DNA of 64,000 nt from Bryum argenteum (taxonomy: Eukaryota; Streptophyta; Bryopsida; Bryales; Bryaceae), in NCBI GenBank assembly GCA_037043015.1, contig CM073324.1, forward strand, positions 6,841,013-6,905,012, given 5' to 3'. Shown here one piece after another: positions 7,795-33,919 of the stretch; position 1 is the first letter of the stretch; each line of letters opens with the position of its first letter. The notes under the pieces are model-generated. The model did not search any database. It worked only from the letters and a program-made list of their open reading frames with translations, and was not told where the DNA came from. The translations under genes were made by a program, and so were the position numbers.

Positions 7795-7972
7795 CCCCAA
7801 CGCGCGGGTTTGATATTACTTTTCCCCAAACCGCTACCGAATTCTCCTCCGCCCTGTGTCCTTGCTCGTCTTAATGATGCGCACTGCCGGGTCGTCTGAG
7901 GAATTTTTGGGGTTTGGTGCACATTGATAGCAGGGGGGATATTTTTTGCCGGTTTTTTCAAGAAATTCAACG

Positions 7973-14160: not shown

Positions 14161-14370
14161 TGGCCTTAGACGATTACGAGCGCTTGTTGCGCGCGTCTGG
14201 TACTGATATTCCTTGGGCACTGTCGTAACGTGCTTTCCCGATTCGTGCCCGGATAACCCTTTTTTGTGGTAAAAGAGGTTTCCCAAACAAGAACCCGAGT
14301 ATTCGTCCACGGAGATCTGTGAAGTGCAAGGGACGAGCGATTTTGCACAAGTTAGCAAACCCGGTTTGTG

Positions 14371-16996
14371 CTATCCGGTATCGGCCCTATCACCCCCGTC
14401 TGCCTGTATCTTGTCCCCGAAAAAGGCGGCGGACGGAGAGAAGGGGGTGGGGGTTTCGTCTTAGTGGTTTAGTTTAGCCTCTGTATTCACCTCAGAGGGG
14501 TTTTCCCGGATTTAGATAAGTGGGGGATTAGACCACTGTTCCCGTTGATTAACGTGACCGGAAAGGTCACCGAGACTCTCTCTCTCCTTACCCTGTTAGG
14601 AACTTCCCTTATACCTCCCTCTACGCCCGGACTCTGGGTCCACACGTATGTCACAAAGATTGGTATCCGGTTCTCCTATGGTCCAGTTATCGCAACTCGC
14701 TACCCGGGTTAGTAGATCCCGGGTTACTGGACTGGGGGATGGTGCGACTGGCCCGGAGTTCACCGCTATCACCTCTGCATGCACATGCCTACCCGGACTT
14801 CAGCGATCTAGGGGGACTCAACCGATGGTGTTCTCGGGAGTCGGTTGAGCGGCCGGAATCCCTTCCTGGCCGCTGTAATCCCAGACGCTACACGGACAGA
14901 CTGGACCGAACCCTAAGTGGCAAGTGCCGTTCGCTAGCCGCACTCTTCCCCTGCCAGCTTCTCTACCTCCCGTACTATCCTCCGTTCAAGGACGGAACCG
15001 TTCTCTCTCTTGCCCGGATAGCAAGGGTCCTCTGAACTTCCGCAAACACCCCCAACCCAGCAAACAAGACAGGAAACGAGAAAGAGACACAATCACACAC
15101 ACACGGGAATTGAGAAAGAGGCGTACTTGCGCTGAAATTAGGGTATTGCAAAGGCACAAAAAGACCCCGAGGGGTATCCTCCCCCTCGGCTAAGTAGCGA
15201 TCCTCCCCGGCATCCCGAGAAGAGGACAAAAGTCCTCGCTAGGGAATCTTTCTAAATCCTACCCCTAGTCGGCCCTAGCGCCGTCATTCTCCTATCTCGC
15301 AATAAAGGCACAACTAAATCTCGATCCGAGATATCTCGCCTGACTACTTGCGTCCGGATCGTCCTCCTCCTTCCCGATTCTACGGTGCCTCGGTAGTCGT
15401 GGAGGTACCGTCCCCCCGCATCTTCGGCCCGGGTTGAGAGGTGATCTCCTCCTCCTCTCCTCCTCGCCATGTGCCGATGCGCTCCCCCGCCGTCCACCAC
15501 TCGGTGCTCACTGGAGGGGCGGGGGTGAGGTATCCGGAAATACCTCCCCGGTCTCCGGGACCTCCACCAACTCCTCGGGTATGAGGGGGGTGGTCTCCGA
15601 GGTGTGGGCTGAGCCAGGGGGACCCTCGGGGACAGGAGATCCCGCGATGGAAATTGCCGGTGCCGATAGAGCCTGGGGTGCCTCGATCCCCTGTTCGGGT
15701 GGATGGGGGTTGGTCCTCTCATCTTCTCCTGGTTGGATCGTGGCCTCCGGGGCGGGAGCAGGGCTCTCATCCCTGGGGTCCACTATCCGGTCAGGTGGAA
15801 TCGGGGAGGAAGTCCTGCTATCTGTCTCTATCCGGGAAGCTCTCTCCTCGGGGGGGACTTCTTCCTTGGCCGCCTCTGTCTCTTCGTGGGTATCCTCGGG
15901 GAGGAGTGGCAGTACGCTTGCCCCGGCCGGAACCTTTTCCGGGCTGCGGACGGGTGGAGGAATGGGCTCCTCCATGGCTACGGGGTCGGCAGACTCCTCT
16001 TCCTCTGCCCGGGCAGCCTCAACAGACTCGGATGCTACCCGGGTAGGAGGGTTTTCAACTACCTCCGGTGGGGGTGCTTCTCCGGGAAAGGCCTTAGCCA
16101 TTTCCCCGATGAGGGTCCTCATCTCCTGGAGGGCTCCTTCCATCCTCTCCGCGGCCTTCTTCATGTATGCCGCCATCCGGGTTGGGAGGTCCGATCCCGA
16201 TGCCTGGAATTGGGCGTCGGCGGTGAGCCTTCACCGTGCCTCTCCGTGCATACGAGGATCTCCCGAGCCCGAAAAGGTCTTTGCCAGCGTACCCTGCTTT
16301 GCTTAGACAGTTCCTCCTCCAACTGCTGGATTTCCCGGGCTTGCCGAAGGATGATGAGGGACCCCTCGTTGATGCTTGCCCGGACTGTCGCATTCTCCTG
16401 GACTAGATCCCGCACCATGTCGGGTCTTGCTCCACCGGCCGATCCGGAGAGCTACCGATATCCCGCGCAGGGCCTTATGCATTTGCGAGATGCTCCTGCG
16501 TGCATACGTGCAAAGCGTGGGCGATCGGTTGCGAGGGTGTTCCTCCGTTATCCGGAATGGGGTACCGGAAGGCGTAGGTCGATCTCCCGCCTCCGCGGGG
16601 TGAAATCCTCCCACCCGGGTAACCGGTCGGTGTTGGCCGGTGCCGTCTCTCCTTGTACCCGGGTAGCGGGGACAGGAGAGTACTGTCCAGTGACCCCCTC
16701 CTCCTCCGAGTCCGAGGACTCCTCCATCACCCTTTTCCCTTTTCTCCGGGCGTCTCCTTCCCCGGGCGAGGTGGGTCGCTGTATGGCCGGAATAGCCCTG
16801 ACGACTGGCTCGAGGAGCTCGGCCCGGACAGCAGGGGAAGTAGCAGGGGTCGCGGCAGTGTCCTCCCTGGGCCTGGTAAGCTTCCTCCGAACCCGGGGGC
16901 GAGGACTCTCGGAGGGGAGGTCCGCCCTCCTCTTCCTAGCATACGTTGGGTCTCCCCACTCGATTTCTCCTGCAGCTGGCGGGGGCACGGGGTCAC
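14371..16996 (-). mobile_element. CCCGG-rich element, part on the left of the hAT insertion
   Basis: GC-rich block with frequent CCCGG and CCGGGT words, unlike its surroundings. Minus-strand frames are open at 16996-16548, 16418-16161 and 16176-15508. Together they encode a Pro/Glu/Ser-rich disordered protein with a short coiled coil (VQENATVRASINEG, MKKAAERMEGALQEMR). It belongs with 33920-35540: the minus-strand frame ending at 33920 continues in frame at 16996 once the 17005-33911 insert and one copy of its 8-bp target duplication are ignored. I cannot assign it to a known superfamily. The 900 bp nearest 14371 carry no ORF I trust. Confidence 0.5.
15508..16176 (-). CDS. Pro/Glu-rich disordered ORF of the CCCGG-rich element
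   Basis: Open frame of 222 codons on the minus strand starting MAAYMKKAAERMEGALQ: a short amphipathic helix, then about 180 residues dominated by Pro, Glu, Ala and Ser. No family recognised. Probably a C-terminal part of the protein whose upstream parts lie at 16418-16161, 16996-16548 and 34769-33920, given the common strand and composition. Confidence 0.4.
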   Translation of the reverse strand: MAAYMKKAAERMEGALQEMRTLIGEMAKAFPGEAPPPEVVENPPTRVASESVEAARAEEEESADPVAMEEPIPPPVRSPEKVPAGASVLPLLPEDTHEETEAAKEEVPPEERASRIETDSRTSSPIPPDRIVDPRDESPAPAPEATIQPGEDERTNPHPPEQGIEAPQALSAPAISIAGSPVPEGPPGSAHTSETTPLIPEELVEVPETGEVFPDTSPPPLQ

Positions 16997-17004
16997 CTAC
17001 CGGA
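16997..17004. repeat. 8-bp target duplication CTACCGGA, left copy
   Basis: CTACCGGA directly abuts the left end of the hAT element; the identical octamer abuts its right end at 33912-33919. Eight-base duplications are the rule for the hAT superfamily. Confidence 0.9.
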
Positions 17005-17015
17005 CAGGGATGTCA
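17005..17015 (+). repeat. Left terminal inverted repeat of the giant hAT
   Basis: CAGGGATGTCA, exact reverse complement of the right end at 33901-33911. Confidence 0.9.
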
Positions 17016-17017
17016 CA

Positions 17018-17062
17018 GCGTCCGGACGTCCGGACGTCCGGCAGAAGTCCGGGGACCGTCCG
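17018..17062. repeat. Left subterminal GGACGTCC repeats
   Basis: Three overlapping CCGGACGTCCGG-type words, each containing the perfect palindrome GGACGTCC, followed by AGTCCGGGGACCGTCCG. The right end has the same words (33836-33898). In hAT elements such clusters are where transposase binds; that role is inferred here. Confidence 0.7.
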
Positions 17063-17134
17063 TGACTTAGAAAATCTGGTCGTTTTACCAAGGGTAAATG
17101 ACCAACGGGGTGCGTTCATTGGTCGAACCACCCC

Positions 17135-17395
17135 GTCGACCGTCCCGACCTCTCCGTCGCCCCGACCGACGGCCGGTCGGCCGCCGAGCGACCGGCCGTC
17201 GGCCGCGGGTGACCGGCCTTGGGTCCGGCCGTCGGCCTGGGCGACCGGCCGTCGGTCCGGCCGTCAGCCCCGGCGACCGGCCGTCGGTCCGGCCGTCGGC
17301 CTCGGCGACCGGCCGTCGGTCCGGCCGTCGGCCTCGGCGACCGGCCGTCGGCCACTGCGACCGGCCCTCGCATCCTGCGACCGCCAACGGCCAGA
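17135..17395. repeat. GC-rich array A4, 32-bp period
   Basis: Units beginning GGCGACCGGCCGTCGG start at 17272, 17304 and 17336, giving an exact 32-bp period, with degenerate units to the left. It stands between the left hAT end and the TATA box of the transposase gene. The core GACCGGCCGTC differs from the left-block arrays (GACCGCCGGTC) but has the same CGACCG/CGGTC make-up. Confidence 0.75.
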
Positions 17396-17470
17396 TGGCC
17401 CTTTTGAGCATCCAACGGTTTAGGAGCATTTCAATTTCAAATTGCAACGGTCATATTCGGAGTTGGATGG

Positions 17471-17478
17471 TATATAAG
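17471..17478 (+). promoter_or_regulatory. TATA box of the hAT transposase gene
   Basis: TATATAAG, about 75 bp after array A4 and 208 bp before the ATG at 17679. Confidence 0.65.
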
Positions 17479-17678
17479 AGAAGACACATTGAGTCTCATT
17501 TCACTTCCGAATTTTGAACACTTTCCAAGAGCTATGAGCCACATAATTCATTTTATGTGTACATTGCTTGGTAGGTATTGAGTTCGGAAGTGAGGATTTC
17601 CGTAAGGAACTCTTGCCAATTTTTTCCCCGTCACGGTCCCACCATTACTTAAGACTTTGAGGCGTCCTATTTATCAAA

Positions 17679-19891
17679 ATGGGCCCTGCTCCACATGAGC
17701 CTTGGTTTAGAGACTTCGAGAAGGAAGGCAAAGCGTCTGGGTCCTTCCTACAATGCTCACTATGTCGTGTAATTGTTTCAAGAAGAAGAGTCGAATTTGA
17801 GTCATTATGGGTACGAGAAGATTCCCGGACATAGGGATTCGAGTTACATCCTTTGCTTGAAGCGCCTAGGGAAATTAGGCGCTTATTTTTAAGATGTGGT
17901 GGGGAGTTTCCCTCCATATAACGGAGAATTGGAACTATTTCTCGGTGAATGTTCTCTCACTCCATCCACGGACGTTCCAGGTGCTTCAAAACATGACATT
18001 CCTGAAACCCCTAGGAGTGACTCTTGTGTAGGGTCCTCGCTAGGCACCCCCATGAATTCAACAAAATTTTTGGTAGGGTCAACCTCTGCTTCTTCCATGC
18101 ATATGAGGGGAATAAGGGATACTCGCCCGATGTTTGGATCTATGAAGCAAACGAAGCAATCTTCAATTGAAGCTACTTTTGCGACGGATAGGCGGGAGTT
18201 GGATAAACTCAGGCGAAATTTTTTACGAAGCAAATATACTATTCTCGGTGAGCCCGCAATGATGCGTTCAAAGTCACGTGATGAAGATCAAAGGGATTTC
18301 GAAAATCCTATGCTCCACCATCCTACCATGACATTCGGACAAGGTTGTTAGGAGAAGTAAAGACGGAGTTACAAAAGAAACTAGATAGTAGACTCTCTGA
18401 GAGCCTTCGGAAGTTTGGAGGAACTTTGACTATGGATGGATGGTCATCTGTGACTAGTCGCCCTTTGGTAAATGCGATGCTCGTGACTCAAGCCGGAGAG
18501 CTTTTTCTTGGTGCTTTGTCGATACTCGCCAAAAAAAACAATGTGTACATGTCAACTCTCATGTTGAAGTACATAGAAGAAGTTGGACCGCATAAATGCT
18601 TCAGAATGCTCAATGCCTCAAGAATAGTCCTTGAGAAATATCCGCACATTTTCATGCAAGGGTGTGCGACACATGCAATGGACTTGTTGTTGGAGGATTG
18701 GGGAAAGGCCGGATGGATGGCGAATACTTTGGTCATGGCGAAGAAAATGGTCAAGTTTATCAAGAGGCGACAAATGCCCCTAGCTGTGTTTCGTAAACAC
18801 GAGGCGAAATTCAGCCTCCTGATGCCCAGGAAAACAAGATTTGCTAGTCAATTCATAATGATAGATCGCTTGTTGGAGGTCAAGGAATCATTGGAGCAAG
18901 TTGTTGTCGACCCTATGTTCACAGCCTATGCCTCGAAGAAGACGGTATCTGCTAGAGATAAGCTTATATTCTCACGTAAGGTCAAGAAGGTGGTGTTGAG
19001 CAATGAGTTTTGGAAGCAATGCAAAAGACTACGGGATATGGTTGCCCCGTGGTGTACGCTCTGAGAGAATTCGACGGCAAGGCTCCTAGTACGGGCAAGG
19101 CATGGCATATTATGCGTGATCTTGAGAGACATGTCCATACTTTGCACGCACCGCCCATCTCATTGGAACCACTTGAGGTGGCCACCGCAAAAGAGGAGTT
19201 TTACCATCGGAAACGGCTCATGACAACGGATTTACATGGTGCGGCTGCACTTTTAAATCCTTATTTACTACACGACCAAGAGTTAGCTGACGATCCCGAT
19301 CTTACAATCGCTTGCAAGCGTGTTTTACAAAAATTATGTCCCGCGGAGGATTACGCAGACGTGGTGAGTGAATTTCTTGCGTTTCGAGTAAGGGGTCCAC
19401 CATTCCATGACATCTTGGAGCCTAATACTCAAAAACTAGCTCCACATGCATGGTGGGAGTTTGAAGGTGCTTGTGCTAAGCTCCTCTCTCCAATTGCAAA
19501 GCGAATACTAGCACAGACCGTGTCCTCGTCAGCTTGCGAACGCAACTGGAGTAGCTACTCTTATGTTCACGACAAGAAACGGAATCGGTTACTACCGGGC
19601 AGAGCTGATGACTTGGTCTACATATATTCCAACTCGAAATTGCTCGCGAATGATAAGTTGAGTGATGATGGGCGGTGGTATAGAGAGAACTTGGATTTAG
19701 AGGAAGACCAAGTACATGAGAATGATGAGGAAGCTGTCGAGGACGAATCAGAGTCTGATGACAATGATGTTTTTGAATTTGGCGATGAAGATGATGATAT
19801 GACTTTCTTCCCCGCTTCAAATGATGAAGATGCTCCAAATGTTCATGATGGTAATGGTGATTTTATCGCTCATGGTCTTTCAAATGGATGA
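17679..19891 (+). pseudogene. hAT transposase with BED-like finger, DUF659 and dimerisation domain
   Basis: It would bind the ends of its transposon and cut and join them in the nucleus. ATG at 17679 opens MGPAPHEPWFRDFEKEG with a CSLC pair, a BED-type zinc finger start. A frame change lies before 17896. The frame 18345-19064 contains LTMDGWSS (first catalytic Asp region), the DUF659-type segment and CATHAMDLLLED. A one-base shift in a C run near 19048 leads to 19010-19891, with LREFDGKAPSTGKAW, HAWWEFEG and the dimerisation block SSSACERNWSSYSYVHDKKR ending in DDLVYIYSNSKLL. An acidic tail follows. With at least two frame breaks this copy looks inactive unless introns or sequence errors explain them. 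It is the outermost gene of the giant element. Confidence 0.8.
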
Positions 19892-19988
19892 TCTAGATGA
19901 TGAGCGCACCGTTAGCCCGGTTAATGACACAAGGCGGCATGGACAAATCAAATAACGTCCTACCACATATCGCTCTTCAAGTTTACGG

Positions 19989-20501
19989 TTGGAAAAGGGG
20001 GCGATAGATGCGAAGACCATTGCGTGCAACACAATTGCGGGCACTATGAGCTCTGATCCGGTCGCGGAGAATATTGCATCCGGTAGTAAGGATCAAGTAT
20101 CGATCAATGTGCTACTCCCGGCTTTATTTCAACCCTCTACTACAAGGGTTACGACAACCTTGGAGAAATCGTCTAAGGGTTTAGTATCCCTTTCAAGAGC
20201 CAAATATGGGAGCATCTCTAGTGACTCTGATGTACCGTTGGGCAGGTATTTAAAGAATGCCAATGTTCTTCGTACTGCCACGGGATTACAGCACATGCTT
20301 GGCTCTTCCAAGTCGCATAAACGGAAATCTGCAATGATTCCAATTGTTCCGCCTAAAAAACGAAGATCCTCATTAATCTCCCCCGAATTTGATACTTGGC
20401 ATAAGTATGGGAATATACAATGTCCAGAGAATAAACCCAAGATCAAAGAGGAGGTTCCAAGCGATTATGAATATGATCCTACGGGATCCAAATGGAGATG
20501 A
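19989..20501 (+). CDS. Possible C-terminal extension of the hAT transposase
   Basis: A 170-codon open frame about 100 bp after the transposase stop, same strand. It is Ser/Thr-rich with two basic clusters (KSHKRKSAMIP, PPKKRRSSL) that look like nuclear localisation signals. No domain recognised. It may be a downstream exon or frame-shifted tail of the transposase, or an independent gene; no splice pair was established. Confidence 0.4.
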   Translation: MEKGAIDAKTIACNTIAGTMSSDPVAENIASGSKDQVSINVLLPALFQPSTTRVTTTLEKSSKGLVSLSRAKYGSISSDSDVPLGRYLKNANVLRTATGLQHMLGSSKSHKRKSAMIPIVPPKKRRSSLISPEFDTWHKYGNIQCPENKPKIKEEVPSDYEYDPTGSKWR

Positions 20502-20941
20502 AGTGAAGGAGATAGCGATTATGAGCAATCCTCCGGTCCCCGATGAGTAGTTGAATTTGGCATCTTTATGTAGTATAGGTTCATAGGACTTATACTTATT
20601 ATAGAAATTGTAGTTATAGTTTACTGTAGTACTTTATTGTTATACTCCAAATGCATTTGGAGATTCTATTGTCTACATGACTGCATTTAATGTTTTGAAA
20701 AATATTACATACATTTTTACATACTTGTCGTACGATAGTCTTCACTCTCAATTGTCTCAAGCATACAAAAGAAATGCACATTAAATCAAAAAAGATTGTA
20801 ACCCTTTACTTCAAAAATAAGGCCCCATGGATCAATGGTGGCATTTGCATCATTTTTAAAACAACAACCATACAATCTAAAAAAAGCATATATATGTATA
20901 GTTATATATGTGGAACTTAAGGTCCAACATCCGTTCTAACT
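20502..20941. other. Convergent intergenic stretch inside the hAT element
   Basis: AT-rich, between the plus-strand transposase region and the minus-strand GWE/RING gene. Nothing else recognised. Confidence 0.5.
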
Positions 20942-23900
20942 TCAAACTGAAGATCCATCCGATTGGCCAATCTGAGCTACACAGCCTACACTGCGAGTAC
21001 GCGATCTTTGACTTGGACGGGCAATTCGACCGCCCTCTTCATACTCTCGATCCACCGCTGCGATTTCGCCTCTCATACCTGCTTGCCAACTATCCTCCCC
21101 ATCGTCGCCCGATTGCCTCTTCCGCTTTTTGCTTGGATCCACTTGTTTGTTACGTAAGATTTCCATGGCCTTCTCAATCTTTGCAATGACATCCTGTACA
21201 ACACCTTCAAACTCATCCAATAATAGAAGTTGTGTGTCTTTTGGGTTTAAAAGACATTCTCTCCAAAATGTAATGGCGTCATCGATACGCGTATCAAACT
21301 TCTTCACCGCATCCCAATAAGAGACCTCCACATCTTCAAAAGAATTTTCCGGTATCGAAATCCGGAATATTGCGGCCTCCTCCAATTTCGCGAGTACCAG
21401 AGCTCTTCCAATTGGAGTATGATCGTACTTTTCTTGTACTCTTCACCAAAGCCTTGTTGAATCGGTTATTTCGTGCCACGAACCATCTTCTCCCTTTTCC
21501 ACTTTCTTTGGAGGAAATCGAAAGAAACGGTTGTGTTCGATGCTCCAATGCCCCCCGAAATTACGACAAAACAACTCTCGTTGCTCATCACCTTCAATAT
21601 TCCTCGCCCTGATCTCTATTTCGTAATCTCGTGTCATCCAAAATAACTGATCATGATCCCCACCAAATTGAATGGCTAGTTGGTGTTTTGATTCGGATGT
21701 ACTCCATGTAAGAGCATTTCCCCAATCATAGTAGTTTAGAAATTTCTTCGGGTATTGATCCAATGGAAGATTCCATCGGTTGAACTCGTGCCCTGGTGGC
21801 ATAAGATCTCGAATGCCCATCATCTCGTAGAATCTCGTGCTAAATGAGGAGCGACATACTGGACATAACGATTTAGTCATCGCATATCGGCATATGCAAG
21901 TAACATGAAAGTTATGGCCACATTGGCCTAACGTGTATGCGCCCTCCGGACCAAAATTATGTAGGCACACCGCACATTTGTCTTTAAGTATTGCGGGAGG
22001 AGGGTCGCATGTGTTGATTACAATGCGAGCTGACTCTTGTAGGTGCGATGAGAATCTACTATACGGCGCCCATCCTTCCTCTATCTCCATAGTCCAATCA
22101 ACATCATTGTTTCGTCCCATCTTAGAGTAGTTTGTACGCTCCATCATCTCTTCAATATCCCCCCAAAAAGTGACCTCTATGGGGTTATATCGTTTTTTCG
22201 ATCCGTTCTTAACGAACTTCTCCAATGAAGCATCTACAACTTCACGTGATTCCTTTTATGTAGATGCAATCGATTTCAGATCTTCTTTTGCTCTCGAAAC
22301 CAAGCTCCTCTTATCTTGAAGTCGATGAACCCATCCCAACCATGGTAGTATGCGTAGGTGAAGGTGGATTCTTTGCCTCCTCAGAATCTACCGTTTTGAA
22401 GGTTTTCCGTAATGCCTCCGATTCGGCCACCCGATCGCCTCATCTCTCTCTTTACTTGTAGCCTCCAACTTCATTGAGCATGCTTTTGCTTCCTCCTCCA
22501 ATTTCGCAAATCGTAACATCTCTCTCCTTCTTGATCTTTGCGAACTCCATCGCCCATGCTCGTTGTCGCTCAATCATGCATCATCTATCTCCTTTTGTGA
22601 TATTAACTTCAATTCCCCCGAATTTCATCATCGTCATCATCGTCTATTTCGATAATGGTTTTTCCCTTATCTTCTTTACCATCCTCTTCACTAACCTCTT
22701 TGAGAGGAGATAAATCTACGATATACGTCTTTCTCGTCTCTTCTTCACCATCCTCTTTACCACCCCCATCAATTTGTGAAAGAAAAAGACTATCAAGTCC
22801 CGATAATGGTCTTCCCCTTATCTTTATTACCATCCTTTTCACCATCCTCTTTACCATCGTCTTTACCACCCGCATCACATTCTGGAACAACATGACTACA
22901 TGAAGCCCCCTGAGTGTCATTCTCTGATGGAACATAGGCGAATTGGTCATCCGCCCATGCTTCTACCGCATCCTTTTGGCGGATTGCTTCTTGGTACTTC
23001 GCCTCATACTTGCTAGCAGACCTTGGCCAAACAACCGCAATTCCTGTAGAACTCGTCTAGGAGACGTTGCGTAATTTGTTTGTTGTTTCTCCCTGTTTCA
23101 CAATGATTAGCTCAGTCTTCACTCGGTCCTTCAGTAGAGGTTGAAACCGATCTACGAGTACCTCAAAATTGTTGGCAGCTAGTAGAATGTTGGGCATGAC
23201 ACCTGCAAAAGTATGAGCCAGCCCCACAAATCTTCGAGCCATATCCGCAAGTATTTTTGACCCCATCTTCAAGTTGTACCCTAGATTAGTTATCTGCTCA
23301 CCCGTAGTCTCGTGCCAATGATTCCCTTCCAAACCTTCCTCTTTATCTACCTCATTGCACCAATCTGCCAAACTTTTTGCTTTTTTCATCCACTCATCCA
23401 ATGTGTTATCCGGTACTTCATAAGTCATATACCTCTCGAACATTGGCGCCGCACCCGAATCGAGATCCATGTCATCCATGGGAGAAGTTGGTGCTTTGGT
23501 TTCCGTGGTTCACTTGGCCCCGCCTCCTCCTCGGTGTTGGTACCGGGTTTCACGAGGTTCTTCAACTACGTTTGCACCTTCGAGCCTATCGATTTATAGT
23601 TGGTTCTACGATTGGGGCATCCGTAGCAACCATATTCCTTCCATCCTCTTGATGTGTCGTGGTTGTTGGAGGAGATTCCTTCTCCGCCGTATCATGAGTT
23701 TTCCTCCTCAAATCTTGCAATAAGGCCTTTGTAGAATTTGATTACTGGATCAAACCTATCGGGATATCCTTTTGATTTCTCCCGATTCAAGAGGATATGC
23801 ACTACTCGCCGTGAATGTGCTCCATTCACCTTGCGCTTCAATATGAGCTCAAGATACACCATGCTCAAGAGCGTATATGAAAAATAACCCTTGCTCTTGG

Positions 23901-24313
23901 GACGAGTTCCAAACAATGCCACCCAAACTTCTTGTGACGATGAAGGAAGTGATAATCCTTGCATGTTTGAGGGTTGCAAGTAAAATTATTGGTATTAACT
24001 TTGTGACATTCTCGAGGCCAAAGTTTCCCAATGTGATACATCTTCACATATTTCTTGCACGTCGCCATTCTCCAAAAGATTCCTCCGGTTCATTGGCCCA
24101 ACCGCTCTCTCGGCTTTGATGGCCTCATTATCCAAGATATCGTAGTGCAACTCATGTCTCGCTCCTTTTGGTTTCACTCTCTTTGACGGTGTCTCATGTA
24201 AAACCAACTCGGTCCCCACCAATCCTGCGTTTGTGGTTTTACGTCCATGAGTGACCTCAAGGTTTGTTCGATTACACGGCCTCCATGTTCGTGTTATCAA
24301 TATCCGTCGCCAT
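20942..24313 (-). pseudogene. GWE/coiled-coil/RING-H2 gene carried by the giant hAT
   Basis: Second full-length copy of the architecture at 7324-4998, same domain order. ATG at 24313 (MATDIDNTNM). GWE-domain pieces ATCKKYVKMYHIGKLWPRE (24066 down) and WVALFG...MVYLELILKRKV (23930-23830) lie in different frames. Next come helical and acidic blocks (23479-23057, 22950-22609 with an Asp run, 22573-22388). The RING block 22225-21443 has CAVC, CGHNFHVTC and CPVC as ligands. The tail 21385-20942 is helical and basic (SKKRKRQ). Breaks between blocks are numerous; some may be introns, but the GWE domain break is within a conserved segment. Array A5 lies upstream. If expressed it would be an E3-type ligase. 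Confidence 0.6.
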
Positions 24314-24534
24314 GAAGAGTAGGGAGTATTTAAAATACCCCAAAATATCCCAAGTATGCAAAAATTCGATCAAAGACCGCAAGTATCACGCTAACTTCCC
24401 CCCGCCACCACAAATGCAGCACACGAGAAGCTAATGCCCACGGTTGCAGCTCAGTTGAGATGGATGAATACAAGGAGAAGTGAGGGGAAATGAGGCCCCA
24501 AAGGCCTCTTATCCCCCTCCCTCCCAACCCTAGA

Positions 24535-24728
24535 GACCGCCGCCGGGACGGTCGCTCGGCCAATCACGGCCGCGACCGTCTTGGCCGGCCGGTCGGCCGG
24601 CCGATCGATGGCGGGCGTTCGTTCGGCCGGCCGGTCGCCGCCGACCGATGTGGCCGGCCGATCGTGGCGCTGATGCCGGCCGACCGATCTTGGCCGACCA
24701 ACGCGGCCGACCGATGTGGGCGGCACGC
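24535..24728. repeat. GC-rich array A5
   Basis: Dense GGCCGGCCGATCG, GGCCGACCGAT and CGGTCGGCCGG words, ending about 220 bp upstream of the ATG at 24313. A weak TATA-like GATAAGAG lies at about 24507-24514 on the minus strand between the two. Confidence 0.7.
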
Positions 24729-24777
24729 GCGGTTTTTTTAATTTTTTTCAATTTTTAAAAAAATAAAAATTAGAAAT

Positions 24778-24783
<6 letters not shown>

Positions 24784-24827
<44 letters not shown>
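24784..24827. repeat. (AT)n microsatellite
   Basis: About 22 uninterrupted AT dinucleotides directly beyond array A5. Confidence 0.95.
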
Positions 24828-24829
<2 letters not shown>

Positions 24830-24851
24830 AAAATTCAGAGATCTTACATAG

Positions 24852-24933
24852 CATAGGATCCTTTTTTATTTCGCAAAGTTTTTTGTTATTTGATTCTTAG
24901 TGATTATTACACACTGAAATAAGGAATCCTATG
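24852..24933. repeat. Hairpin-forming inverted repeat, copy 1
   Basis: CATAGGATCCTTTTTTATTTC faces GAAATAAGGAATCCTATG across about 43 bp. A second copy of the same hairpin lies at 26772-26852. Possibly a small MITE-like insertion duplicated with its surroundings. Confidence 0.65.
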
Positions 24934-26541
24934 TTGATTTCTGAAATGCAATATATTATTTCTCTCGGATACATCTTAACCCTTAAAAATCCACAATGTT
25001 TCGGGAGCTTGAAATCCCAACACTCGACCACTATGTACTATTTGGGGTACGTCCAATATTTTTGGAAATTATTGATAATTTCATCCGTAGGATCTTGAAG
25101 TAGACTACCATTGATAGTACCGTGATTATTTTTAACCGTTGGATCATCACTAGATGTGAGATCATAACGTTTAAAGTTGACTGGAAATTTTTTTCCTTCA
25201 CCGTAAACGCCGAATCGGTGGCCGTGGTCGTTTAGGGGTTAACTCTAAATTTTAAGTTCATAACCATTTTCAATGGACTCTTTAAATCGTAAATCTTCAC
25301 AAATTAATAGATGTTTCAAACATAAGGCATTCATTTGGTTTCAATCAATATCTTTCTTCTTTATTTTCCTTTTGTAATTTAATTGACCATTGGCTTCATG
25401 AATCAAACTTTTAACCACATGACCTACAACAAGAACTCTATTCCAATATTGCATGGTTGAGAATGTCAATTGGAGTATCCTAATCTTAATGTAGGACACT
25501 TATTTTGGAACTCATCCTAAAGAGTTATTCATACATCCTAAACCATAAACCACAAATCCTATCCACGAGTGATTTTATCCACTAGATACTCTAAATGAAG
25601 AAGAGATGCCTATTTAAAATTTTATATTTTCAAAACAATCAATCGAAGAAAGAGTTATATGACTTATATCGGGAATTACTAGAAATTGTGAAGATTATTT
25701 TTGTAATCTTTCAACAAGACTTTGTGAAATAGACAAACATTTTGACTTGGGTCACTTTGGAATCAAGTAGTAAATTGTTCATGAACATATTTCCAAAAAA
25801 ATTTCAAACAAAGACTAAATTTAACTCCCTTTAATGGACTTCAAACGTAAAAATTATAGATGTACGTTGTAAATTTGGAATTTGGATATGCAAATTTTAC
25901 CACATGCACTTTGCGGTGTAAGGACCACCTAGTCAAAATTTAATAAAAAATTATTACTTTTGACCTCTTCATATAAGCTGCCCGAAATAGGAAACCTCCA
26001 CTTTGGTGTCCATGGATCTTTAGGGGTTAAGAAGGAATATTTTAACAAAAATAAATTAAGGTGTACAATCAAAAGCATGGTCTTTAACTAATAATAAGAA
26101 TTGACCCCTTTGCCTTTGCTTTCCTTAAAAACAAGGGCATGAACTCTCAATGCCTTCACAAATGAGAAAATAGACCACACTATATTGATTGTTAAATGTT
26201 TACTTGATTCGAGCCAATTGGGCACAACAACTCAAAAAGTGAGTGTATTGGCGTGAAGATTTGCTCGCCTTAACTCCCCTTCAAGAAAGTCCATTACTAT
26301 GGATATATTTAAAGCCAAGAGTATCTTTGTCATAAAACATTCTCGCGTGGGACAAAAAGATATTCCCGACATTCTCTTGTCAGAAAATTCCCTGTCCATA
26401 TTTAGACGCCACGTGGAGCATAAAGACTAAATATAGTAGTTTTGAAAATGCGGGTATGCAAGGCGAGGAAGTGATCGAAGTTGTGCAAACGGGAGTTTGG
26501 GGAGAGGCAAGAGGAGGAGGGGAAGGGGGACGCGGAAGGAC

Positions 26542-26692
26542 CCACCGACCCGGTCGCCGGGGACGTGGTCGGTCCCCTTGCGCCGGCGGCGGTCGTCGGG
26601 CCGGATCGCCGGACGCTGGGCCGGTCGCCGGTCGCCGGGCCGGTCGCTGACGCCGCCGGGCGTCGCACGCCGCCCGATGGCGGCCAATCGAA
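26542..26692. repeat. GC-rich array A6
   Basis: GGTCGCCGGGC, CGGGCCGG and CGGACGC words, preceded by the same GCAAGGCGAGGAAGTG leader as array A7. No gene start is recognised beside it; it looks like a duplicate of the A7 region. Confidence 0.65.
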
Positions 26693-26771
26693 ATGGGGCC
26701 AAAGTACGCTTTTTTTTTTCATTTTTTTTTTTTTAAATTCCTTAAATACATAACTAAAAAATATAAAATTG

Positions 26772-26852
26772 CATAGGATCCTTTTTTATTTCTCAAAGAT
26801 TTCTTTACTCGATTTTCAGATAATTACTACACAATGAAAAAGGAATCCTATG
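26772..26852. repeat. Hairpin-forming inverted repeat, copy 2
   Basis: CATAGGATCCTTTTTTATTTC facing AAAAAGGAATCCTATG; diverged copy of 24852-24933. Confidence 0.65.
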
Positions 26853-27412
26853 TTGATTTCCGAAATGCTAAGTATTCTTTTTTCACGGATACATTTGAAC
26901 TTTAAATTTTAAGTTCATAACCATTTCGAGTGAGCTCCATAAAAGTATAGATCTTCACGAATTCAAAAATGTTTCGTACAAACACTACTTGATCACTCAT
27001 ACGTTATGATCTATGAGGTCAGTATGAATTAAACTCTAAGCCACATGACCTACAATAGTAACTCTATTCCAATTTTGGTTTAAAATAGGCTATGAGATTG
27101 AAGACTCTGGAATCATAATTCGTATGTTGATGTTTAATATAGTACCTATATATTCTTTGCAATAAATTTGTGATTTATTCCATGTCAATAACATCTTCAA
27201 TCAAAAATGATAAATACAAAATAGATTATTTTGCACACATTAACTATGCGATGTAGAGAAGTGCAACTTGTATCCATGTAAAATATAATTGAGAACTACA
27301 CCATACATACAATAATCCATTATTTTACATCCACACACAATTGTGTTTGCAAAGCTTTGCAACACAAAAACTAGGATTAAAATGAAATGTACCCCAAATC
27401 CTCAAGACCAGA

Positions 27413-27471
27413 AACCCTAAACCCTAAACCCTAAACCCTATACCCTAAACCCTATACCCTAGAGGCCTACA
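27413..27471. repeat. Interstitial telomere-type repeat (CCCTAAA)n
   Basis: About eight heptamers: five CCCTAAA and several CCCTATA variants. This is the Arabidopsis-type plant telomere repeat (TTTAGGG on the other strand). It lies inside the giant hAT element, far from any chromosome end that could be inferred here. Confidence 0.9.
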
Positions 27472-28440
27472 TAGTAATTCATACATCTTTAACCAAGAAC
27501 TTAAAGTTTATCCTCAAGAGAATGTATCCATTACATACAGTAAATGAAGAAGTGATGGCTCTTTAAAATATTCTATTCAAAAATCAATCAATCATAGTAT
27601 ACGAATAATCAATTTGATATAACATCTAATCCTAGTACTAATGTACTATACTTGTACAATATCAAATATGCTTAAAAATTTAGGAGTTGATGCCATTATT
27701 GCCATATGTTAAACACTTAGAGGGTGGGATATTTTTTTAAATTTATCGGTCTCCCTATTTATTTCTCTTATTTTATGATTGCAAAAATAGTAACAATGAA
27801 AACTTATTTCAATTACCTTGGTAAGAGGGAAATAAGTAACTATTCAAATCCATACAATAAGAATAATGCTACAATTAATCATATGTACTAGATTATATAT
27901 ATTCTCCTAGGTTAGTTGAAGGTTGTCAAACAAAAAATAGCGAATAATAGAATTAATTGTTTATGCACCATATTTTTTATAATAAGTATTACTAATTAGA
28001 ATACACAACGACGGAATAATTTCCAAATACCCATCAATTAATATAGACCATACATTGTGGAAATGTTAAGGCCCAAATAGAAAGTCTAAATATTGACAAA
28101 CTCAAGAAGACCAAAGTTATGAAAAGTAAATGCTCACACATGATCACCTACATTTCATATATACTTGGATCTCTCCAATGTGAGACATCAATATATTCTC
28201 ACCAAGGACTAGGTAAATTTTTGGAATGTAATTAGAGGGGATTTAGGGCCACCTCGAGGGTACACAAGACGGGGCAAGTCATGAATGGGGGCCAAGAAAT
28301 GACAAAATCTCCTAGTGAGAATGGATAAATTTTTCTATTTCCTATCCGTGAAAAATAGTAACCCACTCCTTTCTCACACCAAGTATATAGATTCCCTCAA
28401 TTTTCCTTAAGTGTACGAGAATAGGTGGTTTCACTACAAA
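27472..28440. other. AT-rich spacer within the giant hAT
   Basis: No ORF, repeat family or RNA gene recognised. Confidence 0.5.
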
Positions 28441-29164
28441 GGGGCTATGTCCAATATTTTTGGATATACTTTATAATTTCAACCATAGGATCTTGAGTAA
28501 ACTACCATATGTAGTAGTGTGAAATCTTCAACCGTTGGATCATCACTACATGCGAGATCATTACATTTGAAATTGAATATGAAACATTTTTTGGCCGTGA
28601 CGATAAAAGACGAAATGTTGGCCATGATTGTGAAGGTGTTAGGGAAGAATAATTCCGAAAACAAAAAATAAAAATAAATGTGTACCAAAAACAAACATGG
28701 ACTTTAGTTAATAATAAGAATTGGCCCCATGGCCTTGGCTACCCTTCTAGACATGGGCTTCAACTCCAAAGGACTTCATGACTCGGAAAATTGGCCACAC
28801 TAAATTGGTTGTTCAATTAAAGCTAATTGTTCAATTAAAGCTAATTGGACAACATAACTCAAAAAGTGCGTGAATTGGCTTGGAGATTTGTTGGCCTTCC
28901 CTCCTCTTGCAAAGAGTCCCTTATTATAGGTTTATTTAAAGCCGATAGTATCTTTGTCATAAAACATTCCCGTTTATGACTAAAAGACATTCCCGACATT
29001 CCCTTGTCAGAACATTCCCTGTCCTTATTTAGACGCCACGTGGACCAAAGAGGCTAAATATGGAACTTTTGAAAATGCGGGCATGCAAGGCGAGGAAGTG
29101 TTCGAAGTTGTGCAAACAAGGAGTTTTTGGGTGAGGAAGAGAGAGGAGGGGAAGGGGAGACGCG

Positions 29165-29478
29165 GAAGGATCGACCGACCGACCGCGCCGGGTCGGGGTC
29201 GGTCGCCCGGCCCGGTCTTGATCGCCCGGTCTCCGCCCGGCCGGCCGCCGCCGCCCGGCCGGTCGGGTGGCGGATGCGGTCGGCCGGATCGGTCGGCCGG
29301 GATCGGCGCGCCCCCGATCGATCGATCGGCCGCGCCATCGACGGCCCCGATCGACCGATCGGAAGTGCGACCCGATCGGTCGTCGCCGTGATCGCCGGCC
29401 GCGGATCGCGGCCGATTGACGGTGCCGACCGGGGATCGGACGGCCAAGGCTACCGGCCAATGGCGTCCGATCCCGGTC
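29165..29478. repeat. GC-rich array A7
   Basis: Dense CGACCGACCG, CCCGGCCGGTCG and GATCGATCGATCGG words. It ends within 5 bp of the TATA box at 29481. Long frames crossing it are repeat translations. Confidence 0.75.
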
Positions 29479-29480
29479 GG

Positions 29481-29489
29481 CATAAATAG
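29481..29489 (+). promoter_or_regulatory. TATA box of the GWE/Tyr-Gly gene
   Basis: CATAAATAG immediately after array A7 and about 145 bp before the ATG at 29626. Confidence 0.6.
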
Positions 29490-29625
29490 AAGGGGAGGGG
29501 CTCATTGTCCTCATTCTCGTGAACGAGCCGTGCGTTGCGGCTTTTTTAAAGTCGCATCGATCACGTTACTCGAGTCCGCGTGGGTCACCCACGCCCTCAT
29601 CTTGTGCATACTTGTCGCCGCTGAA

Positions 29626-30720
29626 ATGGCGCCGAAGTTTTCACGTTCGAGGGGCGAGGCCAAGTCTCCACGACCAAAGGGCGACCCTCCAAAAATGGAT
29701 TGGGAAGCATGGAGTGACCCAAATCGTGTTGCGAGCCGGGTTGGCGTGAGAGAGGGGCGGACATTTGGAATTGCACCATGTGCAAGAAGTACGTGAAGAT
29801 GTACCACATCATGAAGTTATGGCCGCGGCACGAAGCAGAAATATGGTCCTCGTCGTGAAGGCCCCGGTGAAGAGTTGCAAGAGCGACCATTTTGCGCACG
29901 ATATCACGAAGTCACAATTGCGATTGGAATCAAGAACACAAGGCCGAATTGATGTTGTATTCTACCATGGCCATGGTGTGGTGAAAAGTCCCCGCACAAG
30001 GACATTGATCGACCACTGTGATAGGTTTGAACGTGCATTTATTGGATCGCAGCAACCGATTCATTCCCACAAATTGGATGGGACCAAGCGATTGTTATAC
30101 TACGTATTCAGAACGTTCAGCTGATATGGATGCCCAACTTCAACAACATGGAACTCCAAGGGCATATGGGGGCACTCAGCAAGACTCAAACCATGACGAT
30201 CGTCAAGCACCAGTATCCTTTGGCACAGGAAGTGAGGGGTATTACCATGGAAACCACCAATTCGGTACTCCGGTGAGTTATATGCCACCTCATCAGCAAA
30301 ACACGTACGGAGCCGAACGCGAGTACGGTAGAGGTGGATCTAGTTCAAACTACCCATCTCCAATGTATACAGGAGGTACACATGGTTTAGGAGGTGAGCA
30401 GGGTAGCGGATCCAATGCTCAATGCAACTCAAGCCCAACTCATCCTATAAACCCATACAATCGTGGGAACCAATACGGTACAACATTCGGAAGTCCCGAG
30501 TACCGTAGGCCATCACACCCGAAGGAAACATACGAGTATGGAGGTCAATATGATAGAAGATCAGACATTGTTGGCTACACAAATTATGGATATGGTCAAA
30601 ATGCATACGGAAGTAACGACATGCCTTGAAAGACCTTATCTATCTCCGGAGGACGAAGAGGCGAGGTACCAACAAGATCTCGCAACAAGCCACACTTCTA
30701 AGTCGGCAGGAATACATTGA
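29626..30720 (+). pseudogene. GWE-related gene with Tyr/Gly-rich low-complexity region
   Basis: ATG at 29626 opens MAPKFSRSRGEAKSPRPKG, basic. The GWE-domain relic appears as CKKYVKMYHIMKLWPRHEAE (about 29780), nearly the same as KKYVKMYHIGKLWPRE in the hAT-borne RING gene, but one frame away from the start. Downstream, the open frame with ATG at 30126 (MDAQLQQHGTPRAYGG) runs to 30629. It is strongly enriched in Tyr, Gly, Gln, Asn and Ser (for example YGYGQNAYGSNDMP at its end). Such composition is typical of prion-like, phase-separating regions. A further frame to 30720 adds an acidic tail (SPEDEEARYQQDL). At least two frame changes separate the parts; introns are possible. Function unknown. 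Confidence 0.5.
30126..30629 (+). CDS. Tyr/Gly/Gln-rich prion-like ORF
   Basis: Uninterrupted 167-codon frame with about one Tyr every nine residues embedded in Gly, Ser, Gln, Asn and Pro (motifs EYGRGGSSSNYPSP, YGGQYDRR, YGYGQNAYG). No folded domain. It resembles assembly-promoting low-complexity regions of RNA-binding proteins, but no RNA-binding domain is attached. Probably part of the gene starting at 29626. Confidence 0.5.
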   Translation: MDAQLQQHGTPRAYGGTQQDSNHDDRQAPVSFGTGSEGYYHGNHQFGTPVSYMPPHQQNTYGAEREYGRGGSSSNYPSPMYTGGTHGLGGEQGSGSNAQCNSSPTHPINPYNRGNQYGTTFGSPEYRRPSHPKETYEYGGQYDRRSDIVGYTNYGYGQNAYGSNDMP

Positions 30721-31469
30721 ATGTACTCGAGGCCGAAAGAAACTTTAGGCAAACGTACTTGTTTGGAGAATCTTCTCGAGGACCACCTTCTTACGGTACC
30801 AGGGCCAAGTCGTAAAGACGATGATGAAGAATCGGATTAAGAATGACAAATCATTATACATAGTGTCATTGTAGTGAAGGTTATGTAGTTTTTGGCGGGG
30901 ATAATGTCTACACCATTCTCGCCTTGCTAGGGGCCAATTTTGAGGATACAAAATCCATATTTTGTTTATGAATGGATTATCCAATATCGGACTATATCGT
31001 TCTATATTAATATACTATGTAATTTGTTATTTCAAGGATTTTATGGCAATTTCTTTGTATTTTATACTATAAGTTCACTTGGTGGTAATAATTTCTTCTG
31101 TTTGGCTTTAAGCCTTTTTTCACAGTCTCACACTCTCACCTAACATATAATATGTTCATCAATTCATTCAAAAAAGCATATGTAAGAAAAGTCATATTAT
31201 GCTTGAGCTGACTTCGGACAAACCATTAATATCGCAACTACGCAAGGTTGATGTAATGAAGAAGTTCCACAATTCATTATACATTCTCAAATATTGTTCA
31301 TGAAGATTTGGAGATATTTCTATTGAAGGTAAGAAGTAATAAATTAAAATAACAAACAATGGAGAAGAAGTCATTGGTGCAAGGTATATATAAACAAGAA
31401 TGTACTTGAAGCCGATACATATAGAAGGCATGTAATACACTTTACTACAAAAATTTGCCTACATCTACA
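30721..31469. other. Convergent intergenic stretch inside the hAT element
   Basis: A short plus-strand frame after 30720 (MYSRPKETLGKR, ending in an Asp/Glu run near 30840) may be the last part of the upstream gene. The remainder is AT-rich without recognised features. Confidence 0.4.
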
Positions 31470-33030
31470 TCAGAACTTCAATGAAGAATCTAAAAATCTA
31501 ATAAAGCCGGAAGAACTAAAAGAAATGCGCATAACTAATTTGCTAATCATACTTGGTGCGATAATGATCATTTGGCACCGCCAATGGAATGATTCCATGA
31601 AGCGGTTGACAACGTGGGTCAACGTATACTTTGCATCAGCCACCATCTCCAAGTATTGGTCAAAAGCATTTGCCAAGTCTTGATTGCACCACCGGTCAGG
31701 CCCCGTTGTACTTTGGCAATTCTCGTAGGCCTTCGACATGCTCTTCTTGAGGATGCGTTGTGCTATTCGTGCCGTAGCAAACTCCTCCGAAGCGCAATCA
31801 AGAACGGGAATAATGTGAATGTCATCACTCCGTTTGTACAAGTACGCCACCCGAGATCTACCCAATATCGTGCTTGTAGAGTATCAATTCGCTCTTGGGG
31901 TTTTGTAAACGTATACAAGGACCTCATTTTATCATCCATGCTCGTTTAGCCCCCAATCACATACTCCAATATACACCCGTGATTCATCTTGAGGAAAGTG
32001 AAGAAGTATGTTCTCTGGAGACACATCGTTGTGGAGGTAGTTCAACCGGTGGACTTCACACATGATATGCACTAAAGCCCCAAGCAAGCTCTGTTTGTTT
32101 TTTGCGGAACCGACCAACCGCCAAGCTCGAATAAGCTCATCATCGAAATGAGGTGAGAGTCCGATCTCTCCATGAACATCATCTCCATATCTTGCATCAA
32201 GAGCCAACATCGATCGAATCGTGCCGCCATTCCACCAATACGTATAGCCTTGGAATTTATTTGCATGAATGGCTATAAAACGAATAACACCGGGATGTTG
32301 TATCCTCACAAAGAAGCGCCTCATTCGATGCTCCATCTTGGCCAAGTCCGGGTCGTGTCACAAAGATGGATGGGAGTCTTTGCAGCAAATTCCCAAAACT
32401 CTTCAATACCCGCAACCCCTCTTATGTGAACTTTGGAAATTGCGCCGTATCCTCCCCTTAGAGTCCTCTTCTCAAGCTCGATGATACGGGCCGTCATAGG
32501 AATTACCACCAAATTATTCGTACGAACCAGCTCCATTAACCTTCCTTGTTCCGTGCGCCACCATCCTATGGAACCAACCCGGTTTGCATTATTGGAATAC
32601 GGCCTCATCGCTTCTTGAAAAGCCTCCGCCCTCAATACCACATCCCTAAACTCCTCATCACCCGCTCGAGTGGTTCTCTCATACCTCTTCAATATGTCGA
32701 CAACATTCCAGAGAGCATCAATTAATCTATCCTCCATCCAGTCCGTAAAACCACGCTTATCAGTCTCCGTTCTCCACACCGGATCTTGGAGCGCTTCCAT
32801 CATGAGGTCCATCATGTCGTCCTTGAATTTGGCCACAACTTCCTCTTTGTATCTCACGTATTTGCTAAACAAACGTGGAAGACTCTTAGCCTCATAAAAT
32901 CGCACGATTACATTCTCCCAAGAAAGTTCTTGCACTTATTGGATGGGTGCTCCCACTTCTCCAAATGTCTAACAACCCTTGGTCTCCGCCCTCGATTCCC
33001 CCTACCCTACCCCACCCCATGTTTGGGCAT
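31470..33030 (-). pseudogene. Atypical protein kinase carried by the giant hAT
   Basis: Start taken at the ATG at 33030 (MPKHGVG), matching MTKSKKHGKG at 7973, though a stop follows after seven codons. Block 32935-32321 is the helical N-terminal domain and then the glycine loop LRGGYGAISKV with FAAK as the ATP Lys. Block 32345-31932 has HPGVIRFIAIH, YTYWWNGGTI, the catalytic loop HNDVSPENILL and the metal-binding CDWGL. Two further shifts lead to YWVDP (degenerate APE) and block 31865-31470, the C-lobe. Catalytic Asp, Asn and metal Asp are present, but HRD is HND and DFG is DWG. A kinase fold is clear. Activity is doubtful because of the frame breaks. Array A8 and a TATA box lie upstream. Confidence 0.7.
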
Positions 33031-33184
33031 CTTTGTGAAAAAAAAAAGCAAAATCTCCCCCCTTACAAATGAAAAGACTTCTTTCCTCCGCAGGATAATG
33101 AGCCAGTGGATGAAAATTAAAAAATTTCCAACCTACTGACTACTCCGCACTCGATAACGAAGGAAAGAAGTGAGGAGAGTGGAG

Positions 33185-33725
33185 GCCGGTCGGCCTTATA
33201 TAGGCCGCGGTCGCATGGCCGGCCGGGCGACCTAAATCGGACGGCCGATGGCCGACCGCCCGACCGACCGACGGCGGCGGCGCCCGACCAATGGCATGAT
33301 CGATCGGCCCGCGGCCGACCGACCGTCGGACGGCCAGCGCCCGACCGGGCGCGACCGCCAAACACCATGATCGACCGACCCGACGGCCGACCGATCGGAC
33401 GGCCGGCGCCGACCGCCCGACCGATGGCCTGCCGACCCGACCGATCGCCCGCCGACCCGACCGATCACGGCCCCGACCCGACCGACGGACGGACGGCCAT
33501 CGCCAACCGGCGGTCGCGGCCGATCGACCGCCGACGGAGAGCGCGACCGTCGGTCGGCCCCGCGCCGACCGCGACCGACGGACGGCCCGACGCCGACCGG
33601 GCCCATCCGACGGCCGACCAACCCGCGACCGATCGGACGGCGGCGGCCGATCAGCGACCGATCCGACGGCGTCGACGGTCGGTCGGCAAGAAGCCAATCG
33701 GACGGTCGAGGGCGCCCGATTCAAT
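33185..33725. repeat. GC-rich array A8
   Basis: The longest array (about 540 bp), built of CGACCGACCG, GATCGACCG, CGGACGGCCG and GACGGTCGG words without a strict period. It ends beside the TATA box of the kinase gene. The nested minus-strand frames here are repeat translations. Confidence 0.75.
33195..33202 (-). promoter_or_regulatory. TATA box of the hAT-borne kinase gene
   Basis: TATATAAG on the minus strand at the gene-proximal edge of array A8, about 165 bp upstream of the ATG at 33030. Confidence 0.65.
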
Positions 33726-33835
33726 CCAACGGTAATCACCTACCCTCACAACACTATTTGAACGGCTACGATACGATTTTCAATACGATCTGACGGTTAA
33801 AAAATTTACTACATGCATAGTAATTCCGATTTACC

Positions 33836-33898
33836 CCCCGGACGGACGTCCGGACGGACAGACGTCCGTCCGTCCAAAAAAACCCAAAAGACGTCCGG
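33836..33898. repeat. Right subterminal GGACGTCC repeats
   Basis: Repeats of GGACGGACGTCCGGACGG and GACGTCCGG near the right terminus, mirroring the left subterminal cluster at 17018-17062. Confidence 0.7.
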
Positions 33899-33900
33899 AT

Positions 33901-33911
33901 TGACATCCCTG
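33901..33911 (-). repeat. Right terminal inverted repeat of the giant hAT
   Basis: TGACATCCCTG, exact reverse complement of 17005-17015. Confidence 0.9.
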
Positions 33912-33919
33912 CTACCGGA
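33912..33919. repeat. 8-bp target duplication CTACCGGA, right copy
   Basis: Identical to 16997-17004, directly abutting the right terminus. Confidence 0.9.

Follow-up and report, generated by a model that had tools for sequence, protein, structure and literature searches.

Transposons of the hAT superfamily are normally short units around one transposase gene. A stretch of 64,000 nucleotides from the moss Bryum argenteum (assembly GCA_037043015.1, contig CM073324.1, positions 6,841,013 to 6,905,012; the window hereafter) raises the question of whether such an element can also be a giant one with a constant set of further genes. A preliminary description of the window, made from its letters, had proposed a 16.9-kb hAT transposon carrying a gene cluster as cargo. 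Analysis of its ends, its genes and further copies in the genome (258.8 Mb, 25 contigs) leaves little doubt that this element is a single, decayed copy of a giant cut-and-paste hAT transposon with several genes. The best explanation as a whole, which is very probable, is a giant four-gene hAT element whose accessory genes would be element-encoded helpers.

Ends and insertion site of the element

By its ends, target-site duplication (TSD) and transposase, the element is a hAT element (coordinates in Table 1). The 11-bp terminal inverted repeat (TIR) and the 8-bp duplication of the preliminary description were both confirmed. The TIR CAGGGATGTCA is perfect and has no exact match in the window besides the two ends; one match with a single mismatch was found inside the element (17994-18004). 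The duplication CTACCGGA lies directly outside both ends and occurs once more in the window, about the chance expectation. The short CAGGG-type TIR also fits the plant hAT consensus [T/C]AGNGNNG given in a survey (PMC6027215). Matching subterminal repeats had been described as well, of which the common type of GC-rich GACCG/CGGTC arrays was recovered; the ends are otherwise unlike, and left and right ends can be distinguished because their sequences differ beyond the 11 bp and the array type.

Joining the window flanks with one CTACCGGA gave a frame on each strand that stayed open through the junction (589 and 321 amino acids, aa), and the joined 300 bases matched 40 other uninterrupted places with 87-99% identity, spanning the junction and nearly the whole length. 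The insertion target was observed to be a repeat (window 15670-17004 and 33912-34351), so the 40 places are paralogous empty sites rather than the same allele. An empty site breaking elsewhere had been named as evidence against the proposed unit; these paralogous sites run uninterrupted across the junction.

Four genes within the element

From the left end, the genes were ordered as transposase (+), RING finger (-), Tyr/Gly-rich (+) and protein kinase (-), which bore out the transposase gene proposed inside one end and the three enclosed genes. The window transposase, just inside the left end, matched the Pfam families DUF659 (E 2.5e-22) and Dimer_Tnp_hAT (E 1e-12). The C-terminal dimerisation domain of hAT transposases (PF05699) was thus present, being over the cut-off both in the window and in the 958-aa frame of another copy, E2 (E 5e-11). 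The stretches DGW, CTDNAS and CERNW, read by eye in the transposases of E2 and of a second-family copy (L030), may correspond to the DDE catalytic motif. The RING gene matched zf-RING_2 (E 1.8e-09), and the kinase gene had a weak protein-kinase match under the Pfam cut-off (E 0.0012). No recombinase family was among the Pfam matches of the open reading frames (ORFs) scanned, the left-end gene being DUF659/hAT. Non-coding RNA was considered and rejected, as an Rfam scan of the element gave two matches only, both far under their gathering scores and taken as chance.

The longest open piece of each gene in the window copy amounted to 29-46% of the reference proteins. In less damaged copies of this type (family 1), the genes form long single open frames, with 958 aa for the transposase (E2, C1:16.08 Mb), 444 aa for the Tyr/Gly-rich protein (copy E1) and 528 aa for the kinase (E2).

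Copies in the genome and integrity of the unit

The 11-mer CAGGGATGTCA occurred 616 times in the genome compared to 102 times for its reversed control, and the extended left and right ends (up to three mismatches) were found at 252 and 227 places against 0 and 1 for the controls. Pairing drew on the listed ends, 100 on the left and 93 of 100 on the right, with the seven on contig C10 omitted because the left list stops at C9. Among these ends, 46 facing left-right pairs lay within 40 kb of each other versus one back-to-back pair. Spacing was 16.0-18.9 kb in 29 of the 46 (one element counted twice through two right ends), and 40 contained at least one match to the four genes. Ten further copies read whole measured 16,630-17,033 bp and were collinear with the window element, with pairwise identity of 88-95% among full copies. 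All four genes were detectable in each of the 11 full copies, among which no variable cargo was seen. A separate short element at each end, the outcome that had been named as fatal to the proposed unit, was ruled out by the 11 collinear copies and the facing-pair counts.

Identical 8-bp TSDs flanked 20 of 21 family-1 copies, the 20 besides the window copy having been picked by end spacing: 10 of 11 whole copies, with E2 on C1 as the exception, and all 10 copies inspected at the ends. The search for other copies returned the same ends and genes with TSDs that vary from copy to copy, except for ATTCGAAT, seen twice. One copy (C9:4962437-4979699, ends L095/L096, TSD GCAGGGTT) looks inserted at the end of another CAGGGTT element.

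The genome-wide gene match lists hold the best-scoring candidates and miss known copies, such as the element at C4:26173711, which is 94-95% identical to the window copy yet has no match in any gene list. The matches listed numbered at least 97 (transposase), 143 (RING), 108 (Tyr/Gly) and 87 (kinase) and merged into 93, 142, 104 and 82 places, respectively. The expected order and strand were kept between transposase and RING at 59 of 93 places, RING and Tyr/Gly at 45 of 142, Tyr/Gly and kinase at 42 of 104, and transposase and kinase at 22 of 93, compared to 0 or 1 in strand-flipped and mirrored controls. Contig C1, 17% of the genome, held 64/93, 86/142, 82/104 and 55/82 of the transposase, RING, Tyr/Gly and kinase places and 16 of the 46 end pairs, an excess of uncertain size because the match lists favour well-preserved copies and the end lists cover the first 100 places of each end, starting from C1. 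That C1 is a sex chromosome would be a guess. The C1 copies E1 and E2 keep longer open frames than most of nine copies on other contigs, in a small sample and with some reference proteins derived from E1 and E2 themselves.

A second family with the same genes under selection

A second family was represented by C9:4245729-4264421, 18,693 bp long with the TIR CAGGGTTGTCA at both ends and the TSD CTCAAACT on both sides. It contains all four genes with their order and orientation unchanged and with 36-73% aa identity by aligned segment; DNA identity between the families is about 70%, and 67-73% in coding regions. A further copy (L030, C1:35.40 Mb), fetched in part, was 95.6% identical to the C9 copy over 6.6 kb, and family-2 open frames reached 972 aa for the transposase (L030), 1122 aa for RING (L029) and 509 aa for the kinase. 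The 11-mer CAGGGTTGTCA occurred 313 times in the genome versus 49 for the control. On C1, its ends formed 23 adjacent facing pairs within 40 kb versus two back-to-back pairs, 12 of the 23 spanning 18.1-19.7 kb. In 10 C1 pairs picked by spacing, TSDs were identical in six (two of them with CTTTTGAC), off by one base in one and mismatched in three. A longer end pattern, CAGGGTTGTCAAT, was dropped for the 11-mer (10 places versus 7 for the control), and a compact cargo-free hAT suspected from a transposase subfamily at 67-68% was ruled out, as the fetched copy L030 also has the RING gene. Non-coding stretches of window 24852-28333 match family 2 at 77-84% (others at 71-74%) in shuffled order, some being closer to family 2 than the coding regions are.

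Ratios of non-synonymous to synonymous substitution (dN/dS; Nei-Gojobori) between the families were 0.28 for the transposase, 0.32 and 0.37 for RING (two different copies), 0.23 for Tyr/Gly and 0.26 for the kinase, a value obtained with either of two copies; the values are approximate because dS of 1.2-1.7 is near saturation. The same alignments in shifted frames gave 0.85-1.46. All four genes are thus under purifying selection, the accessory genes being constrained about as strongly as the transposase within that approximation.

Predicted proteins and their relatives

The RING and Tyr/Gly-rich proteins have an N-terminal domain in common (35% identity over 112 columns, E 1e-16; nine proteins aligned), for which structure prediction gave a confident core with a mean predicted local distance difference test score (pLDDT) of 77 and several ten-residue blocks above 90. 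In two proteins scanned, no Pfam family covered the domain at an E value of 1 or below. In the kinase, K226, D343, N348 and D366, taken here to be the catalytic residues, were invariant in 19 aligned proteins (17 of 52 relatives found plus two element copies). The best 50 of 1074 PDB matches to its structural model (E≤0.001) were all protein kinases, and a sequence search of PDB gave weak matches only (best E 0.0066).

Relatives of the RING protein with 41-56% identity were present on other public contigs; a viral origin was discarded, no relative being confirmed among viral contigs. The family-2 kinase was 78% identical over its full length to a protein of the moss Ceratodon purpureus, which points to a moss as the host, and 45% identical to a second one, KC19_VG055000 (cluster of 126 member sequences), whose locus tag suggests a location on the V sex chromosome. 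A transposase relative (P0076) and a kinase relative (P0037) each lie on an ENA contig of 27,639 bases, which suggests one shared contig of another genome.

Repeat blocks and candidate promoters

Of the 82 GACCG/CGGTC occurrences in the window copy, 68 are concentrated in five blocks that cover 1.9 of 16.9 kb. Five blocks were also counted in E2, family 2 and the third-family stretch described below, and four in E1. In some cases a TATA-like sequence was present between block and gene, and it is plausible from this arrangement that the genes have their own promoters. Direct repeats at 26207-26490 and 28834-29117, 84% identical and 2.6 kb apart, each adjoin a GACCG block, possibly as a duplicated promoter minus its gene.

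A third family and other features of the window

A remnant of a third family occupies the left of the window and continues beyond it (L033; Table 1). Window 1-16999 and the adjoining 10 kb on the left contained no hAT transposase match. For the third-family RING gene, 144 matches were counted, with identities to others of up to 98%. On C5, a sister copy that is 94-98% identical to the remnant in three long segments, with about 3.4 kb on the window side only, carries a hAT transposase that is 44% identical to that of family 1 over the best 325 residues. Left of the point at which homology of the window copy ends, translated frames look retrotransposon-like by eye. Homology between the two also stops at window 8577, within the kinase gene, and the right end of the C5 copy was not found in the 27.8 kb read.

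The third-family ends CAGGGTTGTCT occurred 819 times genome-wide versus 49 for the control. Among the ends listed on C1 at 0-19.5 Mb, 28 adjacent facing pairs lay within 40 kb versus seven back-to-back pairs, and 13 of the 28 contained the RING gene. A correctly facing end lay 3-6.5 kb from 17 of 42 RING places among the ends listed, compared to two in the control (second fragments of five split matches omitted). Nine of 10 pairs picked for containing the RING gene had identical TSDs. The elements are often 18-20 kb long with a gene order unlike that of families 1 and 2, and short pairs spanning between 228 bp and a few kb hint at non-autonomous derivatives. Elsewhere in the window, frames of a Ty3-type long terminal repeat retrotransposon (gag, reverse transcriptase, RNase H and integrase) were seen at 46437-52556 (-).

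Table 1. Features of the giant hAT element and of the third-family remnant (window positions).
Feature	Position	Strand	Remarks
Family-1 giant hAT element, complete from left to right end	17005..33911	+	16,907 bp; TIR, TSD, 10 collinear copies
TSD CTACCGGA, left copy	16997..17004	+	
TSD CTACCGGA, right copy	33912..33919	+	
Left TIR CAGGGATGTCA	17005..17015	+	followed by left-end-specific CAGCGTCCGGAC
Right TIR CAGGGATGTCA	33901..33911	-	followed inward by right-end-specific ATCCGGACGTC
hAT transposase gene (DUF659 and Dimer_Tnp_hAT)	17661..20484	+	frame-broken in window copy
RING-finger protein gene	20945..24089	-	shared N-terminal domain; frame-broken in window copy
Tyr/Gly-rich protein gene	29490..30812	+	same N-terminal domain as RING; frame-broken in window copy
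Protein-kinase gene	31546..33127	-	frame-broken in window copy
GACCG/CGGTC block, left end	17005..17504	.	upstream of transposase; TATATAAG at 17471
GACCG/CGGTC block	24505..24704	.	upstream of RING gene
GACCG/CGGTC block	26505..26704	.	no gene recognised downstream; adjoins one direct-repeat copy
GACCG/CGGTC block	29105..29404	.	upstream of Tyr/Gly-rich gene
GACCG/CGGTC block, right end	33105..33804	.	upstream of kinase gene; TATATAAG near 33195 (minus strand)
Third-family remnant	1-8939		continues left of window (L033); with GACCG blocks
Shared-domain gene, third-family remnant	729-1013	-	
Shared-domain gene, third-family remnant	3238-4563	+	
RING gene, third-family remnant	about 5292-7324	-	31% identity
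Kinase start, third-family remnant	7973-8939	+	23% and 40% identity by segment

Discussion

The cargo-carrying giant transposon of the preliminary description stands as one giant hAT unit, but a captured, Starship-like cargo is not supported: the same gene order recurs in family 2 at about 70% DNA identity under purifying selection, and part of the set recurs, rearranged, in family 3. The three accessory genes are considered integral to the element because of this common set, the dN/dS values of 0.23-0.37 and the partial recurrence. They probably help the element to transpose or to escape silencing, as judged from their domains and conservation. In such a mechanism, the transposase would act on the CAGGG ends and neighbouring arrays and move the whole 17-19 kb unit, with each gene transcribed from its own GACCG-array and TATA promoter. 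The RING, Tyr/Gly-rich and kinase proteins would be helpers acting on the transposition complex or on the silencing machinery of the host, through ubiquitination in the case of the RING protein and phosphorylation in that of the kinase. An anti-silencing role for the accessory proteins is conceivable, at somewhat less than an even chance.

Several points weigh against a giant four-gene element with its own helpers. None of the 11 family-1 copies has all four genes full-length, and in the C9 family-2 copy, read whole, the transposase frame is broken and the Tyr/Gly gene contains a stop; present autonomy is at most putative on these grounds, and present-day family-1 copies may depend on each other for proteins. 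Identical TSDs were found in only seven of 11 family-2 copies overall, the other four differing (one by a single base), and TSD checks covered pairs picked for spacing or, in family 3, for containing the RING gene. In the third family, the kinase was not detected in the C5 copy, its start being seen in the window copy only, and no Tyr/Gly-rich gene was recognised in either. The proposed helper role draws on domains and selection, for which the near-saturated dS also counts, the N-terminal domain had no meaningful fold match in PDB, and the kinase model is middling (pLDDT 76; predicted template modelling score 0.54).

The closest rival explanation keeps the element as described and has the accessory genes serve transposition itself, that is excision or repair of a large unit with the kinase and RING acting on DNA-repair proteins, rather than anti-silencing. 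The large size common to three families agrees with it, a kinase and an E3-like protein could act on repair, and the present results do not separate the two roles; Pfam scans of the given ORFs returned no DNA-repair-specific domain, and this role is judged less likely than not. Far less probable is recent capture of a host gene cluster, in the manner of Pack-type or Starship-like cargo, carried by chance or for host benefit. Host genomes commonly encode RING and kinase domains, the element far exceeds the longest plant hAT consensus (7144 bp in PMC6027215), and ToxhAT provides an earlier case of a hAT-like unit that holds other genes (PMC6737239). However, the gene set is constant in 11 full copies and common to families that are about 70% identical in DNA, all four genes are under purifying selection like the transposase, and family 3 again contains a RING gene, the N-terminal domain in question and the start of a kinase gene. 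A small hAT whose ends happen to flank independent elements is highly improbable, since internal GACCG blocks resembling the end arrays and the 84% direct repeats are outweighed by 11 copies collinear through the interior, no internal exact CAGGGATGTCA in the window element and the 16.0-18.9 kb spacing of 29 of 46 facing pairs listed.

The giant four-gene hAT element was also compared with known gene-carrying elements. Starships of fungi are giant, gene-carrying elements with a tyrosine recombinase and variable cargo; the moss element is likewise giant and gene-carrying, but neither a tyrosine-recombinase captain at one end nor variable cargo was seen. Pack-type elements hold different host gene fragments in each copy, in contrast to the same four genes in 11 copies and family 2. 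Among plant DNA transposons, Mutator-like elements (MULEs) with a ULP1-type protease and VANDAL elements with VANC carry accessory genes that include a known anti-silencing factor; both differ from the moss element in transposase superfamily and in having unrelated proteins.

Plant hATs such as Ac, Tam3 and the Repbase plant set have the CAGGG-type TIR, the 8-bp TSD and the hAT dimerisation domain in common with the moss element, which differs in its 16.9-18.7 kb and three further conserved genes; the longest consensus in the survey is 7144 bp, and the survey reported no moss (Physcomitrella) hAT (PMC6027215). Accessory genes in hAT or hAT-like units are described for fungi in two reports, on ToxhAT (PMC6737239) and on TET/JBP-bearing hAT7 (PMC12730594). 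ToxhAT of wheat-pathogenic fungi similarly combines a hAT-like transposase with other genes in a unit of 14.3 kb, and differs in its 74-bp TIRs, the absence of a TSD in that account and its description as a composite (PMC6737239). The moss element instead has 11-bp TIRs, TSDs, many collinear copies and genes common to families, and so does not belong to composites without a TSD. TET/JBP-bearing hAT7 resembles it in being a hAT transposon whose accessory gene encodes a modifying enzyme, but there one accessory gene has passed between several transposon lineages with 7-bp TSDs (PMC12730594), compared to three accessory genes inherited with one hAT lineage in the moss.

These elements were not reported in the literature searched, which covered few subscription papers. 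Within it, a 17-19 kb hAT lineage in which more than one family conserves a four-gene programme appears to be new. A paper on the Ceratodon sex chromosomes reportedly mentions an undescribed cut-and-paste superfamily on them, and the novelty falls if this is the moss hAT lineage. Tentatively, the three families of about 17-20 kb might belong to a moss lineage of giant hAT elements that turned into semi-autonomous gene clusters, in which a transposase, a RING and a low-complexity protein with a new DNA- or chromatin-targeting domain for reading the GACCG arrays, and a private kinase counter host silencing and coordinate the element's own promoters, their genes accounting for some of those annotated on moss sex chromosomes; this is less likely than not to hold in full.

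Element genes can pass as host genes in moss annotations, for example the kinase relative KC19_VG055000 of C. purpureus. A hAT lineage that stays at 17-19 kb and in which purifying selection preserves a RING protein, a kinase and a low-complexity protein shows that this cut-and-paste superfamily can support a fixed multi-gene programme, and its accessory genes can be tested directly as candidate helpers of plant transposons or as anti-silencing factors.

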